From Candidatus Azambacteria bacterium (GTDB taxonomy: Bacteria > Patescibacteriota > Minisyncoccia > UBA10092): a DNA stretch of 36,779 nucleotides. The notes beneath the pieces were generated by a model. The model ran no database searches and was not told the origin of the DNA. It saw only the letters and a program-made list of their open reading frames with translations. Shown one piece after another: positions 2,722-31,609 of this stretch; position 1 is the stretch's first letter; each line of letters starts with the position of its first letter. Made by a program: the position numbers and the translations under genes. The stretch lies in the NCBI GenBank assembly GCA_016213445.1, contig JACRAJ010000002.1, positions 1-36,779 of the forward strand. Direction: 5' to 3'.

Positions 2722-4353
2722 ATGGCAATGAGCAGGAAATATATTTTTGTTTTAATATTAATTATTGTTTTGGCGGTTTTTTTTAGATTCCGGCAGTTTA
2801 CGTCAATTCCGGCCGGCTTGTATCAGGACGAAGCGATGAACGGCTCCGATGCTTTGACTTCATTAAAATCCGGCGATTTTTCCGCTCAAGGCGGACCAGC
2901 CTCGGGCTGGAAGATTTTTTATCAAAATAATAACGGCCGGGAAGGAATGATGGTCTGGCTTGACGCGCTGGCCGTAAAATTATTCGGAACGGAACCATGG
3001 GTTTTAAGATTGTTTCCGGCAACAGCGGGAGTTTTGGCGGTTTTAGGCCTCTATTTTTTGGCATTGGAATTATTTGGCGCGGAAATCGCTTTAATTTCAA
3101 GTTTTTTTATGGCGACAAGTTTTTGGGCGGTGAATTTCAGCCGTACGGGATTTCGAGCCGGTTTAATGCCGCTTTTTTTGATTTGGTCATTTTATTTTTT
3201 GCTACGCGGCTTTAATATACGGATGTCCGACGCTCACAATAACGGGCATCGGACATTCGTATTTATGTTCGTTTTGGCGGGAATTCTGTTCGGTTTGGGA
3301 TTCTATACTTATATTTCGTTCAGGTTTGCGCCGGTGTTGGCGCTTTTAGTTTTTGGACCGGCGCTTTTAAAAAAATATAATGGCCGATTTAATCGGCAGT
3401 TATTAATCGGATTTTTATTTTTTATTTTGACGGTTTTTATCATTGCCCTTCCGATTGGATTGTATTTTCTAAAAAATCCGACAGACTTTTTTGGCCGAGC
3501 TTCCGGAGTTTCCGTATTTTCTTCGTCGTCTCCGCTTAAAGCGGCGGCTGCCAGCGTCATTAAAACCGTCGGCATGTTTAACATTGCCGGAGATTTTAAC
3601 TGGCGCCATAATTACGCCGGTTCGCCGGAATTGTTCTTTCCGGTCGGGTTGTTTTTTCTTTTGGGAATTTGGTTGAGCATTAGGCGGTTTGAGTTTAAAG
3701 ACAAGTTTTTGCTTCTTTGGCTTGGAGTTTTTTTACTGCCCAATGTTTTAACAAGCGAAGGCAACCCCCATTCTTTAAGGGCTTTGGGCGCCATGCCGGC
3801 GGCAATGATATTCGCCGGAATCGGCCTGTTTTGGCTTTATCAAAAAATTCAGGCGTATTTTGACGGCAAAATTAAAAATCCGGATTTTTTCAAATACAAA
3901 AGCCAGCTTTTAAGGTTAAAAAAAGAAACATTTTTGCTTTTAATGGTATTTTTGGTTTTTATCGGAGCTTATAATTTTAACGGATATTTCAATCTTTGGG
4001 CTTTTAATCCAAACGTTCTTTCGGCTTTTTCTCGCGACCAAGTTGAAATTGCGAATTATCTGAACAGTTTGCCGGAACAAACGGAAAAGTACGCCATTTG
4101 GGATGCAAGCGACAGAGCGACGGATAACGGGCTTCCGGTATCGGCTCAAACGGTTTATTTTTTAACGGCGAAAAAAATTAAAGTAAATTATTTAAAATCC
4201 GACGAACTTGATAAAATAAATCCCGGTGCAAATGGTTTGGTTATCGCTCCGTTATATTATAATTTGGATTTATTGCGCGATCTGAACAAACGATTTCCGC
4301 AAAGCAAAATTAATTTTATTTACATAAACACCGCCGTTGTATCGATTCAGTAA
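2722..4353 (+). CDS. GT-C superfamily (ArnT/PMT-like) membrane glycosyltransferase
   Basis: 543 residues with an N-terminal membrane helix, a first extracytoplasmic loop containing the acidic YQDEAMNGSDA motif expected of GT-C catalytic loops, and a chain of about ten further helices. These enzymes transfer a sugar from a polyprenyl-phosphate donor on the outer face of the membrane. Two palindromic repeats are embedded in frame: residues 54-63 (SAQGGPASGW) and about 166-181 (a hydrophilic patch with MSDAHNNGH). Removing the first leaves a smooth KSGDF-KIFYQNNNGREG junction. The start at 2722 is conventional, but the -10 box ends at 2721, so ATG 2728 may be the real start. It is followed after 20 nt by a second GT-C enzyme. 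Confidence 0.82.
   Translation: MAMSRKYIFVLILIIVLAVFFRFRQFTSIPAGLYQDEAMNGSDALTSLKSGDFSAQGGPASGWKIFYQNNNGREGMMVWLDALAVKLFGTEPWVLRLFPATAGVLAVLGLYFLALELFGAEIALISSFFMATSFWAVNFSRTGFRAGLMPLFLIWSFYFLLRGFNIRMSDAHNNGHRTFVFMFVLAGILFGLGFYTYISFRFAPVLALLVFGPALLKKYNGRFNRQLLIGFLFFILTVFIIALPIGLYFLKNPTDFFGRASGVSVFSSSSPLKAAAASVIKTVGMFNIAGDFNWRHNYAGSPELFFPVGLFFLLGIWLSIRRFEFKDKFLLLWLGVFLLPNVLTSEGNPHSLRALGAMPAAMIFAGIGLFWLYQKIQAYFDGKIKNPDFFKYKSQLLRLKKETFLLLMVFLVFIGAYNFNGYFNLWAFNPNVLSAFSRDQVEIANYLNSLPEQTEKYAIWDASDRATDNGLPVSAQTVYFLTAKKIKVNYLKSDELDKINPGANGLVIAPLYYNLDLLRDLNKRFPQSKINFIYINTAVVSIQ
2881..2910 (+). repeat. Family A 30-nt twin-hairpin element inside the glycosyltransferase
   Basis: Two adjacent 15-nt hairpins: TCCGCT-CAA-GGCGGA (one G-T wobble) and CCAGCC-TCG-GGCTGG. 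It is read in frame as SAQGGPASGW. Other copies are at 10060, 14875, 22114 and 31490. Confidence 0.85.
3217..3262 (+). repeat. Family B palindrome inside the glycosyltransferase
   Basis: A 17-bp inverted repeat (3217-3233 against 3246-3262, 15 Watson-Crick pairs) with a 12-nt loop. It contains the core GATGTCCGAC that is also present at 18466-18475. It encodes a hydrophilic stretch between hydrophobic segments of the host protein. Confidence 0.75.
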
Positions 4354-10059: not shown

Positions 10060-10089
10060 TCGGCCATAGGCTGATCCGCCTTTGGCGGA
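10060..10089 (-). repeat. Family A twin-hairpin element upstream of lysS
   Basis: On the minus strand the first half is TCCGCC-AAA-GGCGGA and the second TCAGCC-TAT-GGCCGA, a 6-bp stem kept by one wobble pair. It ends 11 nt before the lysS start codon and would fold in the mRNA just ahead of the ribosome binding region. This is the only copy that is fully intergenic. Confidence 0.8.
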
Positions 10090-13820: not shown

Positions 13821-14855
13821 TTAATTGTTGCTTACCAGAATTTCTTTCAGCGATTCAACATCTTCAAGTATGAGTCCGCAGCCGCGCACTACGGCCGTCA
13901 GCGGATCCTCGGCTAATTTAGCGGGGATATCGGTGGCTTTCGCAACCATTTCGGGAAGGCCTCGGAGCAGGCTTCCGCCGCCGGCTAAAACGATGCCTCT
14001 AACCATCAAGTCGCTGATAAGTTCGGGAGGAGTTTCTTCGACGACGGAACGGATTTCCGAAATTATGGCGTCAACCGAAGGCGCTATCGCTTCGCTTATT
14101 TCCAGGTCGCTTATTAAAACTTCTTTCGGCAAGCCGCTTATGAGATCGCGGCCTTTTATCGTTGCGGCCAGCCTTTCCTGTAAAGGCGCCACCGCGCCGA
14201 TGGAAATTTTTATTTCTTCCGCGGTTTTTTCGCCTATTAAAAGCTTAAATTCATCATGAACGTATTGAATAATATCTTCGTTCATTTTTTCTCCGGCAAT
14301 CCGCAAATTGCGAGACACAACGATGCCGCCCAAAGAAACCACTATGATGTCGGTGGTGCCGCCGCCGATATCGACAACCATATTGCCGACAGCTTCGGAA
14401 ATCGGCAATCGGGCTCCGATGGCGGCCGCCATCGGTTCTTCAACAAGATATACTTCTCTCGCGCCGGCATTGCGCACCGCGTCCTCAACGGCGCGCCGTT
14501 CCACTTCGGTTACGCCGGAAGGAATGCCGATAACGACGCGCGGCCTTGTTAAAAAGCGATAAGGGCTCTGATGGACCTTGTTGAAAAAATATCTCAACAT
14601 CTGTTCGGTAATTTCAAAATCGGAAATCACGCCTTCAATAAGCGGCCGAACGGCGATAATATGACCGGGCGTGCGTCCGATCATTTTTTTAGCGGCGTCG
14701 CCGACGCTCAAAACTTGATTGGTTTTTTTGTTAATGGCGACGATTGACGGCTCATTGATGATGATCCCCCGCCCTCTCACATACACCAAAGTATTGGCCG
14801 TGCCAAGGTCGATGCCAATATCTTTTGAAAAAAATTTAAACAAACGCCCCAACAT
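13821..14855 (-). CDS. mreB: Actin-like rod shape protein MreB
   Basis: 344 residues from ATG 14855. The frame also extends upstream to a TTG at 14882, but that codon lies inside a family A repeat, and the ATG gives the usual amphipathic membrane-binding start MLGRLFKFFSKD before GIDLGTANTLVYV (phosphate 1). Phosphate 2 is intact as VVDIGGGTTDIIV with the Mg-binding Asp; the catalytic EEPMAAAIGA loop and the adenosine motif LAGGGSLLRGL are standard. MreB polymers direct side-wall growth. It heads mreBCD-PBP2 and follows proS by 10 nt. Confidence 0.97.
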   Translation of the reverse strand: MLGRLFKFFSKDIGIDLGTANTLVYVRGRGIIINEPSIVAINKKTNQVLSVGDAAKKMIGRTPGHIIAVRPLIEGVISDFEITEQMLRYFFNKVHQSPYRFLTRPRVVIGIPSGVTEVERRAVEDAVRNAGAREVYLVEEPMAAAIGARLPISEAVGNMVVDIGGGTTDIIVVSLGGIVVSRNLRIAGEKMNEDIIQYVHDEFKLLIGEKTAEEIKISIGAVAPLQERLAATIKGRDLISGLPKEVLISDLEISEAIAPSVDAIISEIRSVVEETPPELISDLMVRGIVLAGGGSLLRGLPEMVAKATDIPAKLAEDPLTAVVRGCGLILEDVESLKEILVSNN

Positions 14856-14865
14856 AAATAGAATT

Positions 14866-16158
14866 TTAGATTTTTCCGCCAAAGGCGGATCCGCCTTTGG
14901 CGGAAAATTTTAAATTTAATAATTCCGAAATTTTTACCAGCTTCGTCTCTTTTTTATTTCTTTGTTTCAATTCAACCGAATCTTTTTCAAGAGTCTTTTG
15001 GCTAACCACCGCGCGCCAAGGAATTCCCAGCAAGTCGGCGTCGGCGAATTTCTCGCCGGCGGTTTTATCGTCGCGGTCATCGTATAATACTTCCATTCCT
15101 TTATCAATGAGTTCTTCGTGGATTTTTTCCGCTTGTTCTTTAACGGAATTTTCTTCCGCTTGCTTGGCGGCGATTTCAACGAGGTGAATCTTGAAAGGCG
15201 CTATTTCTTCCGGCCAGATTATTCCTTTGTCGTCATTATGGATTTCCACGGCGGTTCCCATCAAGCGGCCCAATCCGATGCCGTAAGAACCCATTATCAC
15301 GTATTCTTTTTTACCCTCTGAATTTATAAATTGCAAATTGAAAGCGGAAGAATATTTGGTGTCCAAAGGAAAAAGATTTCCAACTTCGATAGCTTTTTCC
15401 ATTTTAATTTCTCCCCGACATTCGGGGCATTTATCGCCTTCTTCAAGCTTGGAAATTTCCTTGTTTTCCGCGTATCCGCATTTTAAACAAACAAAAATTG
15501 TGTCTTCTCCGACTGGAGTTATCACTTGAAATTCATGGGTATGGCTTGCGGTGAAAACTCCGCCGGCCGCTATGGTGTAAACGGCCTTTAAGCCGCAGCG
15601 GTTGAAAATTTTAAAATAAGCCGCCTTTACTTTTTCATAAAAGTTTTTCAAATCTTCTTCCGAAGAATGGAAGCTGTATAAATCTTTCATTATGAATTCG
15701 CGGCCGCGCAACAGGCCCGATTTTGCCCTCGGCTCATTTCGAAATTTGGTTTGGATTTGATAAGCGGCAAACGGCAAATCTTTATATGAGTTTACGTATC
15801 GGGTGGCAATAGCCGTCAGCACTTCCTCGTGCGTCCAACCCATGACGAAGTTGGCGGTTTTTTCGTTTTTTTCCTTCGCTTCAAAACCAATAGGCACATC
15901 CCAGCGTTTGGTGGCATCCAAATATTTTTTTTCCACAAGCGCCGGCATAAACATTTCTTGTCCGCCGATGGCATTCATTTCTTCGCGGATAATATTGGCG
16001 ATTTTTTCAAGCGTTCTCCAGCCTGAAGGCAGATAAGAATAAACGCCGGCGGAATTTTTATAAACAAAACCGCCCCGTTCCAAAAGCCGGGCGTTGACGC
16101 TCGTTTCATCTTTTGGATTTTCCCGCAAAGTATGTCCGAAAAGTTGTGATTGCTTCAT
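14866..16158 (-). CDS. proS: Prolyl-tRNA synthetase (short bacterial form)
   Basis: 430 residues from ATG 16158 (MKQSQLFGHTLRENPKDE), the normal ProRS start; an in-frame extension to 16236 adds 26 unlikely hydrophobic residues. Class II core with LLERGGFVYKNSAGVYSYLPSGWR (motif 1 region), FRNEPRAKSGLLRGREFIMKDLYSF (motif 2) and YGIGLGRLMGTAVE (motif 3), then an anticodon-binding domain. The large editing insertion of bacterial ProRS is replaced by a short Cys-rich segment with CLKCGYAEN...CPECRG, which could bind zinc. The last 12 residues (NLKF followed by SAKGGSAFGG-KI) come from a repeat, so the C-terminus has been rebuilt. Confidence 0.94.
   Translation of the reverse strand: MKQSQLFGHTLRENPKDETSVNARLLERGGFVYKNSAGVYSYLPSGWRTLEKIANIIREEMNAIGGQEMFMPALVEKKYLDATKRWDVPIGFEAKEKNEKTANFVMGWTHEEVLTAIATRYVNSYKDLPFAAYQIQTKFRNEPRAKSGLLRGREFIMKDLYSFHSSEEDLKNFYEKVKAAYFKIFNRCGLKAVYTIAAGGVFTASHTHEFQVITPVGEDTIFVCLKCGYAENKEISKLEEGDKCPECRGEIKMEKAIEVGNLFPLDTKYSSAFNLQFINSEGKKEYVIMGSYGIGLGRLMGTAVEIHNDDKGIIWPEEIAPFKIHLVEIAAKQAEENSVKEQAEKIHEELIDKGMEVLYDDRDDKTAGEKFADADLLGIPWRAVVSQKTLEKDSVELKQRNKKETKLVKISELLNLKFSAKGGSAFGGKI
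14875..14904 (-). repeat. Family A twin-hairpin element forming the ProS C-terminus
   Basis: TCCGCC-AAA-GGCGGA followed by TCCGCC-TTT-GGCGGA; the whole 30 nt is its own reverse complement. It encodes ProS residues 419-428 and lies 19 nt before the mreB ATG, so the same hairpins occupy the mreB leader. Confidence 0.9.
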
Positions 16159-19252: not shown

Positions 19253-20266
19253 TTAGCGGCGCGCCATAACGCTTCGTTTGTAAATTTCCAGATTTTCCAG
19301 AACCAAGCCGGCGCCTTTGGCGACGCACAAAAGCGGCTCTTCAGCGATATAAGCCGGCACGCCCGTGGCTTTAACTATCAATTCGTCAAAGTTTCTTAAA
19401 AGCGCTGTGCCTCCGGATAAAATTATACCCTTGTCCATAATATCGGCCGATAACTCCGGCGGAGTTTGGGATAAAACTGTTTTTAACGCCTGGATTATCT
19501 CCTTAAGGCGTTCGGAAATGGCATCAACGATTTCATTGGTGCCCACGGTTATGTTGCGCGGCAAGCCCGTTAGAATATCTCGGCCCCTGACGCCGATATG
19601 CAACTCGTCTTTTACCGGCAAAGCCGAACCGACTTCAAGTTTTATTCTTTCGGCCGTTCTTTCGCCTATTGCGAGATTATGTTTTCGTTTAAGATGCTCG
19701 ATAATCGCTTGGTCTATTTTATTGCCCCCCACTCTTTTCGAATAAGACGTTACGATGCCGCCCAAAGAAATTACCGCGACCTCGGTTGTTCCGCCGCCGA
19801 CGCCCACAATTAAATTGCCGGAAGCGGAATTAATCGGCACATCGGCGCCGATGGCGGCCAAAACCGGTTCTTTAACGATATACGCGGATCGGGCGCCGGC
19901 ATTGATGGCGGCATCGATAACGGCTCTTCTTTCCGTTGAGCTTGATCCGGACGGCACCGTTATCAAAACATCCGGTTTTATCAGCTGAAATTTTCCGAGG
20001 CTTTTTTGTATGAAGTACCTAAGCATGGCCTCGGTGATTTTGTAATCGGCGATCACGCCGTCGCGCATCGGCCTTTTGGCGATAATATTTTCCGGGGTCC
20101 GGCCGAGCATCATCTGGGCTTCGGATCCAACGGCTAAAACGGCATTATTATCGGCGGAAATAGCCACTACCGTCGGTTCGTTTAAAATAATTCCCCGGCC
20201 GGGAACAAAAACCAAAGTATTGACCGTCCCCAAATCTATTCCTATTTTTCTGGTAAATAAACTCAT
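19253..20266 (-). CDS. mreB: Second, divergent MreB/Mbl-like actin homologue
   Basis: 337 residues. Phosphate 1 is normal (GIDLGTVNTLVFVPGRG), and KEPVLAAIGA keeps the catalytic-loop Glu. The phosphate 2 motif is altered: the invariant Asp of VDIGGGTT is Gly at residue 155 (VGVGGGTTEVAV). The adenosine motif is also changed, LSGGTALLRNF where GGG is expected. The N-terminal amphipathic helix is short (MSLFTRK). It is 6 nt downstream of murA, outside the mreBCD cluster. It may co-polymerise with MreB or act as a nucleotide-binding regulator with poor hydrolysis; this is inference. Confidence 0.9.
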   Translation of the reverse strand: MSLFTRKIGIDLGTVNTLVFVPGRGIILNEPTVVAISADNNAVLAVGSEAQMMLGRTPENIIAKRPMRDGVIADYKITEAMLRYFIQKSLGKFQLIKPDVLITVPSGSSSTERRAVIDAAINAGARSAYIVKEPVLAAIGADVPINSASGNLIVGVGGGTTEVAVISLGGIVTSYSKRVGGNKIDQAIIEHLKRKHNLAIGERTAERIKLEVGSALPVKDELHIGVRGRDILTGLPRNITVGTNEIVDAISERLKEIIQALKTVLSQTPPELSADIMDKGIILSGGTALLRNFDELIVKATGVPAYIAEEPLLCVAKGAGLVLENLEIYKRSVMARR

Positions 20267-21603: not shown

Positions 21604-22530
21604 ATGACCAGAAGATTCAGAAGGTTTATTTTTTTGATATTTACCGCGCTTTTTATAATGTGCAGTTTTGCCGCGGTTCTTTTTGCCGAAGGTTATCGGT
21701 TTGATTTCAGCGACTTTAAACTGGTAAAAACCGGCGGAATTTTCATTAAAACATCCACTGATGGGGCCAAAATATACATTAACGACAAATACATAGAATC
21801 AACCAATGGAATTTTAACCCACAGCGTTTTAATAAGCGGTCTTGCGCCAAAAAACTACAATGTTTTTGTTTATAAAGAAAATTATTATCCATGGAATAAA
21901 GTTGTTAAAGTTGAAAATGGAATGGTGTCCGAGTTGGATAGCATACTTTTATTTCCTCTGGAATTAAAGAAAAATAAAATTGCCGAATTGTCCGATCAGA
22001 CAATTTCCGAATTTGAAATAATCGACAGCGCGGTGAAAATTAAAAATAACAAAGCCAAAACGCTCAATACCTATAATTTAAATGACGGCAAGTTGCTAAC
22101 GAGCGAGAAATTCTCCGCCAAAGGCGGACCAGCCTCTGGCTGGAAAACCACCACGTCATCTCCTCAAGAAATAATTTCTCCCGATAAGAATAAAAAACTT
22201 TATGTTTTAAATAATCGGATTTGGGTTGAATATTTAAAAAATATAACGAAAGATCCCATTAAAAATGCCGGAGAAAAAGAATTGCTTGCCATTTACGAGC
22301 CGCCAATTGATTTTTTTGAATGGTTCGGGGATTCCAAACACGTAATGTGGTTTGCCGACAACGAATTAAATGTGGCCGAATTGGATAATAGAGGCGGAAA
22401 GAGAAACAGTATTAATTTTTATCTCGGCATCAATCCCCCGTTTTTTTGGGATCGCGAAAATTCCGAACTTTATTTTTTTGAAAAAAGCGCGGGAAAAAGT
22501 GTTTTATACAAAATAAGTTTCAAATCTTAA
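21604..22530 (+). CDS. PEGA-domain membrane-anchored protein
   Basis: 308 residues from ATG 21604. A GTG at 21586 is in frame but lies in the promoter spacer and is rejected. An N-terminal membrane anchor (about 9-28) is followed by a PEGA-type beta domain (about 45-105: IKTSTDGAKIYINDKYIESTNG...GLAPKNYNVFVYKENYYPW), then a C-terminal beta-rich region that resembles propeller-like repeats (VMWFADNELNVAEL). PEGA domains occur on cell-surface proteins. Residues 171-180 (SAKGGPASGW) come from a family A repeat. Its stop codon overlaps that of rpsI on the other strand by four bases. Function unknown. Confidence 0.8.
   Translation: MTRRFRRFIFLIFTALFIMCSFAAVLFAEGYRFDFSDFKLVKTGGIFIKTSTDGAKIYINDKYIESTNGILTHSVLISGLAPKNYNVFVYKENYYPWNKVVKVENGMVSELDSILLFPLELKKNKIAELSDQTISEFEIIDSAVKIKNNKAKTLNTYNLNDGKLLTSEKFSAKGGPASGWKTTTSSPQEIISPDKNKKLYVLNNRIWVEYLKNITKDPIKNAGEKELLAIYEPPIDFFEWFGDSKHVMWFADNELNVAELDNRGGKRNSINFYLGINPPFFWDRENSELYFFEKSAGKSVLYKISFKS
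22114..22143 (+). repeat. Family A twin-hairpin element inside the PEGA gene
   Basis: TCCGCC-AAA-GGCGGA followed by CCAGCC-TCT-GGCTGG; both stems are perfect. It is read as SAKGGPASGW, the same frame as the other coding copies. The second half matches the copy at 2896-2910 except for one loop base. Confidence 0.92.
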
Positions 22531-28492: not shown

Positions 28493-30274
28493 TTATTCCA
28501 CAACGGCTCTTATCCGGCGTATGCCGGCCGACGAACTTTCTTCTTTTATTATTTTAAATTCGCCTATCTCGCCCGTTCTCGCGACATGCGGCCCTCCGCA
28601 AAGCTCTTTGGAATAAGCTTTGGACGGATCGGGGTCGCCGATGGAATAAACGTTAACTTCATTCGGATATTTATCTTTTAAAAAAGCGCGCGCGCCCATT
28701 CTAATGGCGCCTTCTTTGGACATCTTCGCGGAAAAAACCGGCAAATCAAGCTTGATTTTCTTGTTAACAATGTTTTCGATTTTTTTTAATTCTTCCGGCG
28801 TCAGTTTGCGGGGAAACGCAAAATCAAATCTCAATCGCTCCGGAGTAATGTCAGAACCTCTCTGTTGGACTTCCGCCTCGTTTCCCAAAACATCGTGAAT
28901 CGCCTGATGAAGCAAATGTGTCGCCGTGTGCAATCTTGTGATTTTATCGATTTCTTTAAAACTTGTCGCCTGTCGCCTGTCGCCTGTCGCTATCCCGTGT
29001 CCTCCGAATTTTTTTTCCGCTCCGGCACGGGAAATTTCCCGGTGTTTTTTAAAAGACGTTTCCCATCCGGATTCATCTATATTAAATCCCCTTTCTTCGG
29101 CAAGTTCTCGCGTCAGTTCCGTCGGAAAACCGTAGCTTTCATAAAGATGAAAAGCGTCTTCCCCGGAAATAATTTTTTCTTTTTTGGCGGCAAGCGTTTT
29201 TTCAAGCTCCTTCAGCCCCTTTTCAAGAGTCTTGTAAAATTTTTCTTCCTCTTTTTGGATTACCGTTAATATATCTTCGCGTTTTATTGAAATTTCCGGA
29301 TAAAATTCCTTATACATTTTAATAACTTTCTCCGCTAAAGAAATCAGGAAATTTTTATCAAAGTCTAAAACTTTGCCATAGCGAATGGCGCGCCGCAAAA
29401 GCCGGCGCAAAATATATCCGGCGCCAATGTTTGAAGGTAAAATGCCATCGGCGATAAGAAACACCGATCCGCGAATATGGTCGACGACAATTCTTACCGC
29501 TCGCGCTTCATTTTCTATGTCTTTGTGCGGAATTGATTGAATCAGCGGTTCGAATAAGTCGGTTTCAAAAATTGTCGGAGCGTCTTGAGAAATCATGGCA
29601 AGGCGTTCCAATCCCATGCCGGTGTCTATTCCGTTTTGTTTAAGCGGCTCCAAATTTTTATCGGCGCGGCAATAATATTGGTTGAAAACCAAATTCCAAA
29701 TTTCAACGCCGTCAACATAAATTTCCGAGGTCGGGCCGCAAGGGCCTTCATCGCCGGTCGGGCCCCAAAAATTATCCTCGCGCCCGCATTTTTTTATTTT
29801 ATCATCGCCAAGCCCCAAGCTTTTCCAAATCGCTATTGATTCAGTATCTTCCGGCACAACTTGCCCCGAGTTTGTCGAGGGGTCGCCTTTAAAAACCGAA
29901 ACATGGCAACGCTCGGGAGAAATGCCTAATTCTTTGGTGATGAATTCCCAGCTCCATTTAATCGCGTCTTCTTTGAAATAATCGCCAAAGCCGAAATTGC
30001 CGAGCATTTCAAAAAAAGTGAGATGCGACTCGTCGCCCACTTCGTCGATATCCGAAGTGCGTAATGACTTTTGTATCGAAACGGTTCGCCGCGCGCCGAA
30101 ATCTTTCACCGGATCTTTCGCGCCGGTGTAATAAAGCTTGAATTGCTGCATTCCGGCCGTCGTTAAAAGCACGGACGAATCATCTTCAGGTAAAAGCGAA
30201 GAAGAAGGCACAATTTTATGCCCCCTCTTCTCAAAAAATTCCAAAAATCTTTTTCTTAATTCTCCGGATGTCAT
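28493..30274 (-). CDS. alaS: Alanyl-tRNA synthetase, truncated form
   Basis: 593 residues against about 875 in E. coli. Catalytic domain (1-240) with SSSLLPEDDSSVLLTTAGMQQF, WGPTGDEGPCGPTSEIYVD and the tRNA-recognition region (240-400). The editing domain keeps HTATHLLHQAIH and the C-terminal CGGPH zinc site. The C-Ala domain that dimerises the enzyme and helps hold tRNA is missing. Two repeat-derived insertions are visible: PSTNSGQ at about 131-138 and a 7-bp tandem repeat at about 429-437 (GDRRQAT). A weak promoter (TTGTGT, 17 bp, TAAACT at 30286-30281) ends 6 nt before the ATG. Confidence 0.95.
   Translation of the reverse strand: MTSGELRKRFLEFFEKRGHKIVPSSSLLPEDDSSVLLTTAGMQQFKLYYTGAKDPVKDFGARRTVSIQKSLRTSDIDEVGDESHLTFFEMLGNFGFGDYFKEDAIKWSWEFITKELGISPERCHVSVFKGDPSTNSGQVVPEDTESIAIWKSLGLGDDKIKKCGREDNFWGPTGDEGPCGPTSEIYVDGVEIWNLVFNQYYCRADKNLEPLKQNGIDTGMGLERLAMISQDAPTIFETDLFEPLIQSIPHKDIENEARAVRIVVDHIRGSVFLIADGILPSNIGAGYILRRLLRRAIRYGKVLDFDKNFLISLAEKVIKMYKEFYPEISIKREDILTVIQKEEEKFYKTLEKGLKELEKTLAAKKEKIISGEDAFHLYESYGFPTELTRELAEERGFNIDESGWETSFKKHREISRAGAEKKFGGHGIATGDRRQATSFKEIDKITRLHTATHLLHQAIHDVLGNEAEVQQRGSDITPERLRFDFAFPRKLTPEELKKIENIVNKKIKLDLPVFSAKMSKEGAIRMGARAFLKDKYPNEVNVYSIGDPDPSKAYSKELCGGPHVARTGEIGEFKIIKEESSSAGIRRIRAVVE
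28964..28990 (-). repeat. 7-bp tandem repeat inside alaS
   Basis: TGTCGCC on the plus strand, three full copies and a partial fourth (GCGACAG on the coding strand). It is read through successive frames as ATGDRRQAT. Gain or loss of one unit would shift the frame of an essential gene. Related 7-mers occur three times in mnmA. Confidence 0.85.
29863..29884 (-). repeat. Palindromic insert in alaS read as PSTNSGQ
   Basis: On the coding strand CCCCTCGA-CAAAC-TCGGGG forms a 6-7 bp stem with one bulge. It inserts a Ser/Thr/Gly linker between VFKGD and the VPEDTE helix of the catalytic domain. Similar STSSG-type linkers are familiar from metagenome-derived proteins. Confidence 0.65.
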
Positions 30275-30309: not shown

Positions 30310-30403
30310 ATCAATAGGTTTCCGACACCTATTGATTTGTGCGGGGTTTACGATAAAAATTTTAATTTAAATGAGAATTCAATAGGTGTCGGAAACCTAT
30401 TGA
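30305..30403. repeat. Two inverted family B hairpins between mnmA and alaS
   Basis: Copy 1 (30305-30341): a 15-bp perfect stem, CACAAATCAATAGGT and its complement, with loop TTCCGAC. Copy 2 (30379-30403): a 9-bp stem TCAATAGGT/ACCTATTGA with loop GTCGGAA, the reverse complement of the first loop. The pair is arranged head to head, like a two-REP intergenic unit. They fill most of the 135-nt gap. Confidence 0.85.
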
Positions 30404-30409
30404 TGTATT

Positions 30410-31609
30410 TTAAATTATAATTCCGCCGCCGAGCATTGCGCCGTTTTTATCGTAAAACACCGCGCTTTGGCCGGGCGTAATTGCTCGTTGAGGAACATCA
30501 AAAATCAGCGACATGCAACTAGCGACACGCAACATGCTTTCATTGCTTTTCTTTGTATCTTGTAGCTTGTTACTTGTCGCTATTATTGCTTGTTGCAGCG
30601 GCTGGCGATATCTGATGCGCGCTAAGCATTTCAAAGGCAATTTCGGCGCGCTTCCGGAAATCCAATTAATATCTTTTACGGTTAATTCTTTGGCAAAAAG
30701 TTTTTCATTTTCACTTTCGGCCACCCAAAGCGTGTTTGTCTTCATGTCTTTTCCGGCAACATAATAAACTTTTCCCTGTTCGCCGGGCAAACTGCCTTTT
30801 ATTCCGATTCCCTTTCTCTGCCCGATGGTATAGAAAATCACGCCGTCGTGCGCGCCGATTGTTTTTCCATCAAGCGTTTTTATCGGCCCAGAATTCTTTC
30901 CGAGCCTTTCTTTAAGAAAACCCGCGACATCTATTTCTCCGACAAAACACACGCCCTGCGAGTCAGGCTTTTCCGCCGTCGGCAAGCCGTATTTTTTTGC
31001 CAATGCCCGCACCTGCGGCTTGGTATAATCGCCTATTGGAAAAAGGCAATGTTTCAATTGCTCCTGCGTCAAAGTCCATAAAAAATACGACTGATCTTTT
31101 GCGCTATCGTGCGCGGTGACAAGCGACAAGCGACAAGCGACATGTTTTTTAATTTTATTTCTTGTCACATGTTTTTTGTCACATGTCGCCCGCACATAAT
31201 GTCCCGTGGCGATGTAATCCGCGCCGAGCGTCAATGCTTTTTTTAGAAACAAGCCGAACTTAATTTCGCGATTGCACATTACATCGGGATTCGGCGTTTC
31301 GCCTTTGGCGTATCCGGAAACCATATAGTCAACCACGGTTTTTTTATATTCGTCTTCAAAATCAAAAACGTAAAACGGGATTTTTAAAACACCGGCGGCT
31401 CTCCGGGCATCCGCCGCATCTTGTTCGGCGCAACCGGTTAAAGACCAGCCTTTCATATAAACTCCGACAACGTCGTATCCCTTGTTTTTTCCGCCAGAGG
31501 CGGATCCGCCTTTGGCGGACAACAATAAAGCGGCGACGGAACTATCCACTCCGCCCGACATTGCCATAAATATTTTTGGTTTTTTTCGGTTTATTTTTGA
31601 CATACGCAT
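30410..31609 (-). CDS. mnmA: tRNA-specific 2-thiouridylase MnmA
   Basis: 399 residues against about 368 in E. coli. PP-loop SGGVDSS at 18-24, first catalytic Cys in NPDVMCNREIKF, second in DSQGVCFVGEID, and the C-terminal barrel ending TPGQSAVFYDKNGAMLGGG. It thiolates U34 of tRNA-Lys, Glu and Gln. The extra length is explained by three repeat-derived insertions: residues 31-40 (SAKGGSASGG) just after the PP-loop helix, about 142-164 (heptamer repeats), and about 344-368 (heptamer repeats in the barrel). Start is ATG 31609 or 31603. TATAAT (31629-31624) ends 14 nt upstream. Confidence 0.95.
   Translation of the reverse strand: MRMSKINRKKPKIFMAMSGGVDSSVAALLLSAKGGSASGGKNKGYDVVGVYMKGWSLTGCAEQDAADARRAAGVLKIPFYVFDFEDEYKKTVVDYMVSGYAKGETPNPDVMCNREIKFGLFLKKALTLGADYIATGHYVRATCDKKHVTRNKIKKHVACRLSLVTAHDSAKDQSYFLWTLTQEQLKHCLFPIGDYTKPQVRALAKKYGLPTAEKPDSQGVCFVGEIDVAGFLKERLGKNSGPIKTLDGKTIGAHDGVIFYTIGQRKGIGIKGSLPGEQGKVYYVAGKDMKTNTLWVAESENEKLFAKELTVKDINWISGSAPKLPLKCLARIRYRQPLQQAIIATSNKLQDTKKSNESMLRVASCMSLIFDVPQRAITPGQSAVFYDKNGAMLGGGIII
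30508..30580 (-). repeat. Degenerate 7-bp repeat arrays in the 3' part of mnmA
   Basis: Plus strand 30508-30535: GCGACAT, GCAACTA, GCGACAC, GCAACAT. Plus strand 30553-30580: TTGTATC, TTGTAGC, TTGTTAC, TTGTCGC, the complementary form of the same motif. They encode a Ser/Lys/Asn-rich insert between the RIRYRQ strand and the IFDVP strand. Confidence 0.8.
31118..31185 (-). repeat. 7-bp and 14-bp repeats in the middle of mnmA
   Basis: GACAAGC three times plus GACATG (31118-31144), then TTGTCACATG twice at a 14-nt period (31162-31171 and 31176-31185). They lengthen the loop between ATGHYV and KDQSYFLW compared with E. coli. Confidence 0.8.
31490..31519 (-). repeat. Family A twin-hairpin element inside mnmA
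   Basis: Coding strand TCCGCC-AAA-GGCGGA then TCCGCC-TCT-GGCGGA; both stems perfect. It is read as SAKGGSASGG, residues 31-40, between the PP-loop helix and the GYDVVGVYMK strand. Confidence 0.93.

Follow-up and report, generated by a model that had tools for sequence, protein, structure and literature searches.

Coding palindromes and 7-bp repeat arrays at recurrent sites in the mnmA gene of Patescibacteria

Repeats in essential genes are usually purged, and tandem-repeat units in open reading frames (ORFs) usually have lengths divisible by three. Dispersed 7-bp tandem units are known from cyanobacteria as heptanucleotide STRRs, which are intergenic and keep a fixed unit. Repeat DNA within genes has been described for the Rickettsia palindromic elements (RPEs), coding palindromes of 100-150 bp that lie in conserved ORFs (PMC3767692, PMC10969869) and for which possible insertion hotspots have been raised as well (PMC3767692). 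A second case is provided by the Borgs, where the unit of every tandem repeat within an ORF is a multiple of three in length (PMC9879509). Our search of the literature outside subscription journals turned up nothing on either heptamer arrays or coding palindromes from Patescibacteria. Here we describe both kinds of repeat in the mnmA gene of a Candidatus Azambacteria genome (G000, an assembly of 426 kb in two contigs), starting from a window of 36,779 nucleotides that is the whole stretch of contig JACRAJ010000002.1 under analysis. The same window holds two mreB-like genes about 5 kb apart (13,821-14,882 and 19,253-20,266, judged from their translations) in what is a small genome.

MnmA and its three inserted segments

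The mnmA gene (30,410-31,609, minus strand) encodes a tRNA 2-thiouridine(34) synthase of 399 residues without internal stop. Its product scores 400.7 bits against the NCBIfam equivalog NF001138 (cut-off 284) and 346 bits against TIGR00420, and it matches all three Pfam MnmA domains. An AlphaFold model of the protein has a mean pLDDT of 88.8 and a pTM of 0.88, and the top Foldseek matches of this model are the solved MnmA structures 2hma and 2deu (TM 0.83/0.91). We assign the ORF to MnmA/TrmU by its family profile, motifs and predicted fold. The PP-loop SGGVDS (residues 18-23) is kept at invariant columns, as are the two conserved cysteines (C112 and C221), in agreement with the original prediction that all catalytic residues remain, and the enzyme with its inserts is probably active. 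The open ORF and its score also speak for an intact gene rather than the pseudogene that had been considered.

When the protein was aligned by HMMER to the solved MnmA chains 2hma and 9hlv (2der is also listed), gaps appeared at exactly three places, of about 10, 12 and 16 residues. The original prediction had put some 31 extra residues at three points; the three points stand, while the size is revised to about 38 inserted residues. Its claim that each insert consists of repeat DNA holds too, one being a palindrome and two being heptamer-array elements. Insert 1 (31,490-31,519, minus strand; residues 31-40, SAKGGSASGG) is a 30-bp coding palindrome, henceforth family A. Insert 2 (31,115-31,189, minus strand; residues 141-165, in the loop before KDQSYFLW) is an inverted heptamer-array element in which GYGACAW heptamers are followed by an A/T spacer and then by inverse heptamers (arms GYGACAW / WTGTCRC), with TRF calls at 31,118-31,142 and 31,158-31,186. 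Insert 3 (30,508-30,580, minus strand; residues 344-367, in the C-terminal barrel) has a first arm of GCGACAA/GTAACAA/GCTACAA/GATACAA (NNNACAA x4) and, after an A/T-rich spacer, a second arm of GTTGCGT/GTCGCTA/GTTGCAT/GTCGCTG (GTYGCNN x4). These inverted arrays are degenerate and fall under the strict period-7 threshold, and their identification draws on the arm sequences, a TRF call of 14-bp period at 30,507-30,533 and RNA folding. In the folding analysis, the single strand of either element beat all 200 shuffles, with z scores of -6.4 for insert 2 and -3.8 for insert 3.

All three inserts are predicted to lie in low-confidence loops of an otherwise confident MnmA model. Insert 1 would form a loop (residues 32-45, pLDDT about 61) after the helix 21-31, insert 2 a loop (145-159, pLDDT 61-75) between the strands 139-144 and 160-165, and insert 3 a loop (346-365, pLDDT about 50) between the strands 339-345 and 366-375, with the lowest confidence, pLDDT below 50, at residues 356-362. 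The structure-prediction check suggested with the original prediction thus comes out positive as regards loop position. As all three sit within an intact ORF, the insertions are tolerated, as had been proposed. The inserts are likely translated into protein.

Comparison with close relatives showed that the three segments are not conserved there as normal protein sequence: these relatives lack insert 1, and their loops 2 and 3 contain either different heptamers or no repeat-like sequence, except that one relative (G004) shares TGTCGC-type heptamers at loop 3. The original prediction had also called the three insertions independent. This needs correction, as the three are not equally independent: insert 1 is recent and species-specific, and inserts 2 and 3 belong to one heptamer class (GCGACAA). 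With a common class of unit, and in loops that have been remodelled again and again over deep time, these two make full independence of the three insertions untenable.

Family A copies and the REP pair beside mnmA

The family A unit, TCCGCCAAAGGCGGATCCGCCTTTGGCGGA, is 30 bp long and its own reverse complement, and it has about 20 sites in the 426-kb genome, against none for a reversed control pattern. Within the window, further copies lie in the C-terminus of proS (SAKGGSAFGGKI; 14,875-14,904, minus strand), in an ORF of 543 residues (SAQGGPASGW; 2,881-2,910, plus strand), in an ORF of 314 residues (SAKGGPASGW; 22,114-22,143, plus strand) and between genes (10,060-10,089). By alignment, insert 1 is missing from the MnmA of all four congeners (4/4), and ten codons were gained relative to most congeners. 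Some copies, with an eroded palindrome, stand at the same place in two species: one is common to G000, FEVELLGI[SAKGGSASGG]K, and G007, FEVELLGI[SAEGGSAPGG]K, and another to G000 (LFINEEKV[...]KNVL) and G001 (LFVNEEKV[...]KNVL). Other copies, that of MnmA among them, are perfect or near-perfect palindromes found in one species only.

We then compared reading frames for the copies from five genomes (G000, G001, G003, G004 and G007). Frame 0 is used by 46 of the 49 genic copies, frame 2 by three and frame 1 by none, even though no frame of the perfect palindrome is closed by a stop. The frame-0 peptide reads SAKGG(S/P)A(S/F)G(G/W) or a close variant. A bias of this kind would follow from production of the peptide and selection on it, or from insertion that is itself frame-specific, and with 46 of 49 copies in one frame, family A can be regarded as a coding palindrome comparable to the Rickettsia RPEs. 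Short palindrome-like inserts of other sequence (SSAKASAGK, VASAKAG, LACRQAG and SARGGPAVG) occur in the MnmA of several relatives (L013, L018, L023, L015 and L004) and perhaps represent further coding-palindrome families. Family A palindromes and heptamer arrays occur together in the genes for an IscS-type cysteine desulfurase (L031:9099-10340), ArgRS (L035:7261-8919) and MnmA. A link between the two repeats within the same gene was considered and is not significant (0.97 genes with both expected, p 0.056).

A third repeat lies beside mnmA: the alaS/mnmA spacer holds a BIME-like pair of REP palindromes, CAATAGGTKTCSGAMACCTATTG, at 30,312-30,334 and 30,380-30,402 (30,312-30,402 as a whole), 68 bp apart. 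The genome has 10 copies of this palindrome, mostly in pairs about 68 bp apart, and the same palindromes, CAATAGGT..ACCTATTG, stand on either side of its single Y1 (RAYT-like) transposase gene (L138:1243-1923). Within the family, REPs of the CAATAGGT type are found only in members with a Y1 gene (G000, G001, G003 and G004). The pair and the Y1 gene are an ordinary REP/RAYT arrangement, which does not explain the coding repeats. The flanks of the Y1 gene hold neither family A nor heptamers, the presence of Y1 is not correlated with that of MnmA arrays (Fisher p 0.54), and in G007 family A is abundant although a Y1 gene is absent. With a different REP at its flanks, the Y1/RAYT gene was therefore rejected as the sole source of family A or of the heptamers, and no enzyme that would generate either repeat was found.

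Period-7 arrays across genes and relatives

To ask whether period 7 is special, we counted self-similar arrays at each period against shuffles. About 173 kb of stretches from the Azambacteria genome contained 14 arrays at period 7, with none in the shuffles and 0-2 at the other periods from 4 to 24. Around mnmA of 40 relatives (647 kb), there were 42 arrays at period 7 and at most five at any other period up to 30. Nearly all period-7 arrays of the Azambacteria genome lie inside conserved genes, encoding SecA, an IscS-type cysteine desulfurase, IleRS, ArgRS, PolX, AlaRS and MnmA; arrays occur in a glycosyltransferase gene as well. The unit class GCGRCAA recurs in MnmA, AlaRS, SecA, ArgRS, IleRS and PolX of this one genome. 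In the neighbouring alaS, whose product was identified as AlaRS at 649 bits, TRF reports a GCGACAG array of 3.9 units (28,964-28,990, minus strand), whose unit falls into the class seen in inserts 2 and 3. The adjacent ileS and argS genes (L035:4314-8919) carry six heptamer arrays, most of them of class GCGRCAA. Spreading of one unit inside each genome was considered as a general rule; it is clear in the Azambacteria genome, weak elsewhere, and partly inflated by doubly counted arrays.

As 7 equals 1 modulo 3, an array of at least three units passes through every reading frame and yields one 7-residue repeat per orientation. The hydrophilic orientation lies on the coding strand in 47 of 59 genic arrays, against a background of 59% (p 7e-4), which is consistent with selection on the peptide, and lysine makes up 17% of the array peptides. 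Inverted arms that could form a hairpin are present in both MnmA inserts and in several intergenic arrays, but were rejected as a general array feature, since no more than about 14 of 77 arrays have a clear inverted partner. Those from G006 and G005 folded no better than shuffles. Intergenic arrays often have an inverted partner nearby and most genic ones have none (L077:15074-15203, L051:439-470, L075:1634-1729).

Across the 40 relatives, mnmA makes up 7.5% of the coding bases and yet contains 25 of the 35 genic arrays, a concentration whose binomial p of 8e-21 is overstated, as arrays shared by descent are counted separately. Loop 2 carries an array in 17 of the 40, loop 3 and other places less often, and the units differ from relative to relative (AATTTCC, AAATCTC, AAATCCG, ACACAAC/ATGTTGC, AAAACAC, AAAATGC and more). 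In further genera and classes these two loops are again occupied by heptamers, of different sequence, and loop-2 arrays occur in records named Falkowbacteria, Howlettbacteria, Colwellbacteria and Yanofskybacteria. In a wider comparison, 22 of 66 Patescibacteria MnmAs had a loop-2 array, with 16 different units, versus none of six outgroup rows. On the tree, the presence of a loop-2 array changed at least 12 times, with seven changes forced by well-supported branches and gain and loss indistinguishable, and its unit changed 21 times. In 56 MnmA loci from outside the Patescibacteria no array was found, and their loop 2 was most often 19 residues long (a wrong ORF was taken at four loci). In the MnmA of Saccharibacteria and its tree neighbours (L182, L183, L164 and L175), loop 2 reaches up to 70 residues and has no detectable heptamers.

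The same detector was applied to other genes in about 30 relatives each (17 for nrdJ), with argS, ileS and secA chosen for their arrays in the Azambacteria genome and murA, nrdJ and serS chosen as controls without any there. Internal arrays per kb came to 0.50 for mnmA, 0.30 for argS, 0.15 for ileS and 0.05 for secA, and to zero for murA, nrdJ and serS. A choice of genes made from one genome thus predicts where arrays occur in others: the sites are recurrent. In the ArgRS of many genera, a single loop behind 'ARI.SIL.K' is where arrays reappear, with differing units. The original prediction of a preferred landing site stands insofar as MnmA is the hottest gene tested, and falls short insofar as ArgRS and IleRS are recurrently hit too. 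We conclude that repeat DNA has repeatedly turned into predicted protein sequence in the conserved mnmA gene. Of the several recurrent sites at which the 30-bp palindrome and the 7-bp arrays would give rise to protein loops, this gene is the strongest.

Origin of the inserts and comparison with known systems

Repeats are present in these conserved genes, are specific to period 7 in the case of the arrays, pass filters of frame and orientation, sit in loops and return to the same loops with different units. The account we favor, and hold to be probable, is that two kinds of repeat enter genes of reduced genomes and survive only where the peptide is harmless, mainly in loops. Family A, as a 30-bp self-complementary palindrome, would be copied as a miniature element that may be mobile; its length is divisible by three, and it would be retained almost exclusively in the frame for Ser-Ala-Lys-Gly-Gly-Ser-Ala-Ser-Gly-Gly, a putative flexible linker. 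The 7-bp arrays, sometimes built as two inverted arms around an A/T spacer, would arise or land in long loops and later be rewritten, with dispersed heptamers presumably acting as seeds from which slippage or fold-back synthesis extends them. As 7 equals 1 modulo 3, the frame of entry is irrelevant to such an array, and only its orientation, the absence of stops and its total length modulo 3 matter. The strongest sites found for arrays are two loops of MnmA, namely loop 2, ahead of KDQSYFL, and loop 3, in the C-terminal barrel, with others in loops of ArgRS and IleRS.

Repeats may simply land at random and be kept in the few loops able to take additional residues, with MnmA no target at all, a possible if less probable reading that fits the predicted loop position of all three inserts, the lack of arrays in MurA, NrdJ and SerRS, and the fact that some other Patescibacteria have a long loop 2 (up to 70 residues) that contains no heptamers. 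By contrast, intergenic DNA of the same stretches, presumably the most tolerant, has 0.31 arrays per kb, and at that density an ancestral 19-codon loop 2 should have collected 0.7 arrays across the 40 genomes, where 17 are observed. This excess of about 24-fold, which shared ancestry inflates and which a faster loss of intergenic arrays may also raise, argues against tolerance alone, while targeting of the MnmA loops by arrays is unproven. A dedicated Patescibacteria process that writes 7-bp arrays, for example by fold-back or templated repeat synthesis, and prefers particular gene loops strikes us as unlikely; if it existed, conserved enzymes would carry continually rewritten, frame-agnostic surface segments.

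Inheritance offers another route to the same distribution, in that a single ancestral loop-2 array may have been passed on vertically, with rapid turnover of units, losses and few or no new insertions. Arrays do cluster on the tree (12 changes versus 19 in shuffles), and the AATTTCC/TAAATTG type recurs in four relatives (G001, G002, G004 and G005). We nevertheless doubt this history, given the 16 different units at loop 2, the canonical loops of 15-19 residues interspersed among the arrays, the recurrence of this pattern in ArgRS and IleRS at sites of no relation to loop 2, and the plainly new insert 1. It is improbable that the loops are adaptive, that is, that lysine/asparagine-rich peptides aid tRNA-binding enzymes and are positively selected: MnmA, ArgRS, IleRS and AlaRS do all bind tRNA, and the lysine content of the array peptides fits, but SerRS has no arrays, SecA, IscS and a glycosyltransferase have them, and composition follows the A-rich units, with peptides differing between species. 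Finally, NCBIfam calls the same heptamer peptide a 'spurious translation', as if the inserts were an assembly artefact, part of a pseudogene or a spliced-out element. With stop-free ORFs in every matched MnmA relative, recurrence in independent assemblies, frame-keeping insert lengths and family A in one frame in nearly all its genic copies, we give this explanation very little credence.

In a phylum whose genomes are extremely reduced, tRNA enzymes retain 7-bp arrays in the same loops, with other units per species, and the relation of 7 to the codon gives a simple rule why such arrays can be coding. Named loops in MnmA and ArgRS tolerate large insertions, and protein-coding repeats, so far the province of Rickettsia and Wolbachia, become testable in a second and much larger group. 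There is also a warning for annotators, since 'spurious translation' models match real enzymes. The NCBIfam model NF041631 ('KRQAASG repeat spurious translation') scores 91-99 bits against ideal GCGRCAA peptides and 21-25 bits, below its cut-off of 30, against the real IleRS and ArgRS arrays, with no listed match for MnmA. The GCGRCAA DNA repeat is thus known to curators as an annotation nuisance; unlike what the label says, the arrays here lie inside intact conserved enzymes and have many other units.

The locus resembles REP/RAYT and REPIN systems (PMC2817692, PMC3116915) in the REP pair beside mnmA and the cognate Y1 gene in the genome; unlike those REPs, family A and the heptamers have other sequences, and the REPs here are intergenic. 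As in the Borgs, DNA repeats would give rise to hydrophilic, disordered protein segments with fast turnover, but the unit is 7 here rather than a length divisible by three. Family A peptides matched none of the NCBIfam models, and the RPE2 model gave one sub-threshold line (E 0.57) against a heptamer peptide. By analogy, the RPEs appear to be the nearest relatives in kind of family A: both are palindromic, lie in frame in conserved ORFs and occur in reduced genomes, and the empty site in the MnmA of congeners adds to the likeness, whereas family A is 30 bp long instead of 100-150 bp, encodes an unrelated peptide and belongs to a different phylum.
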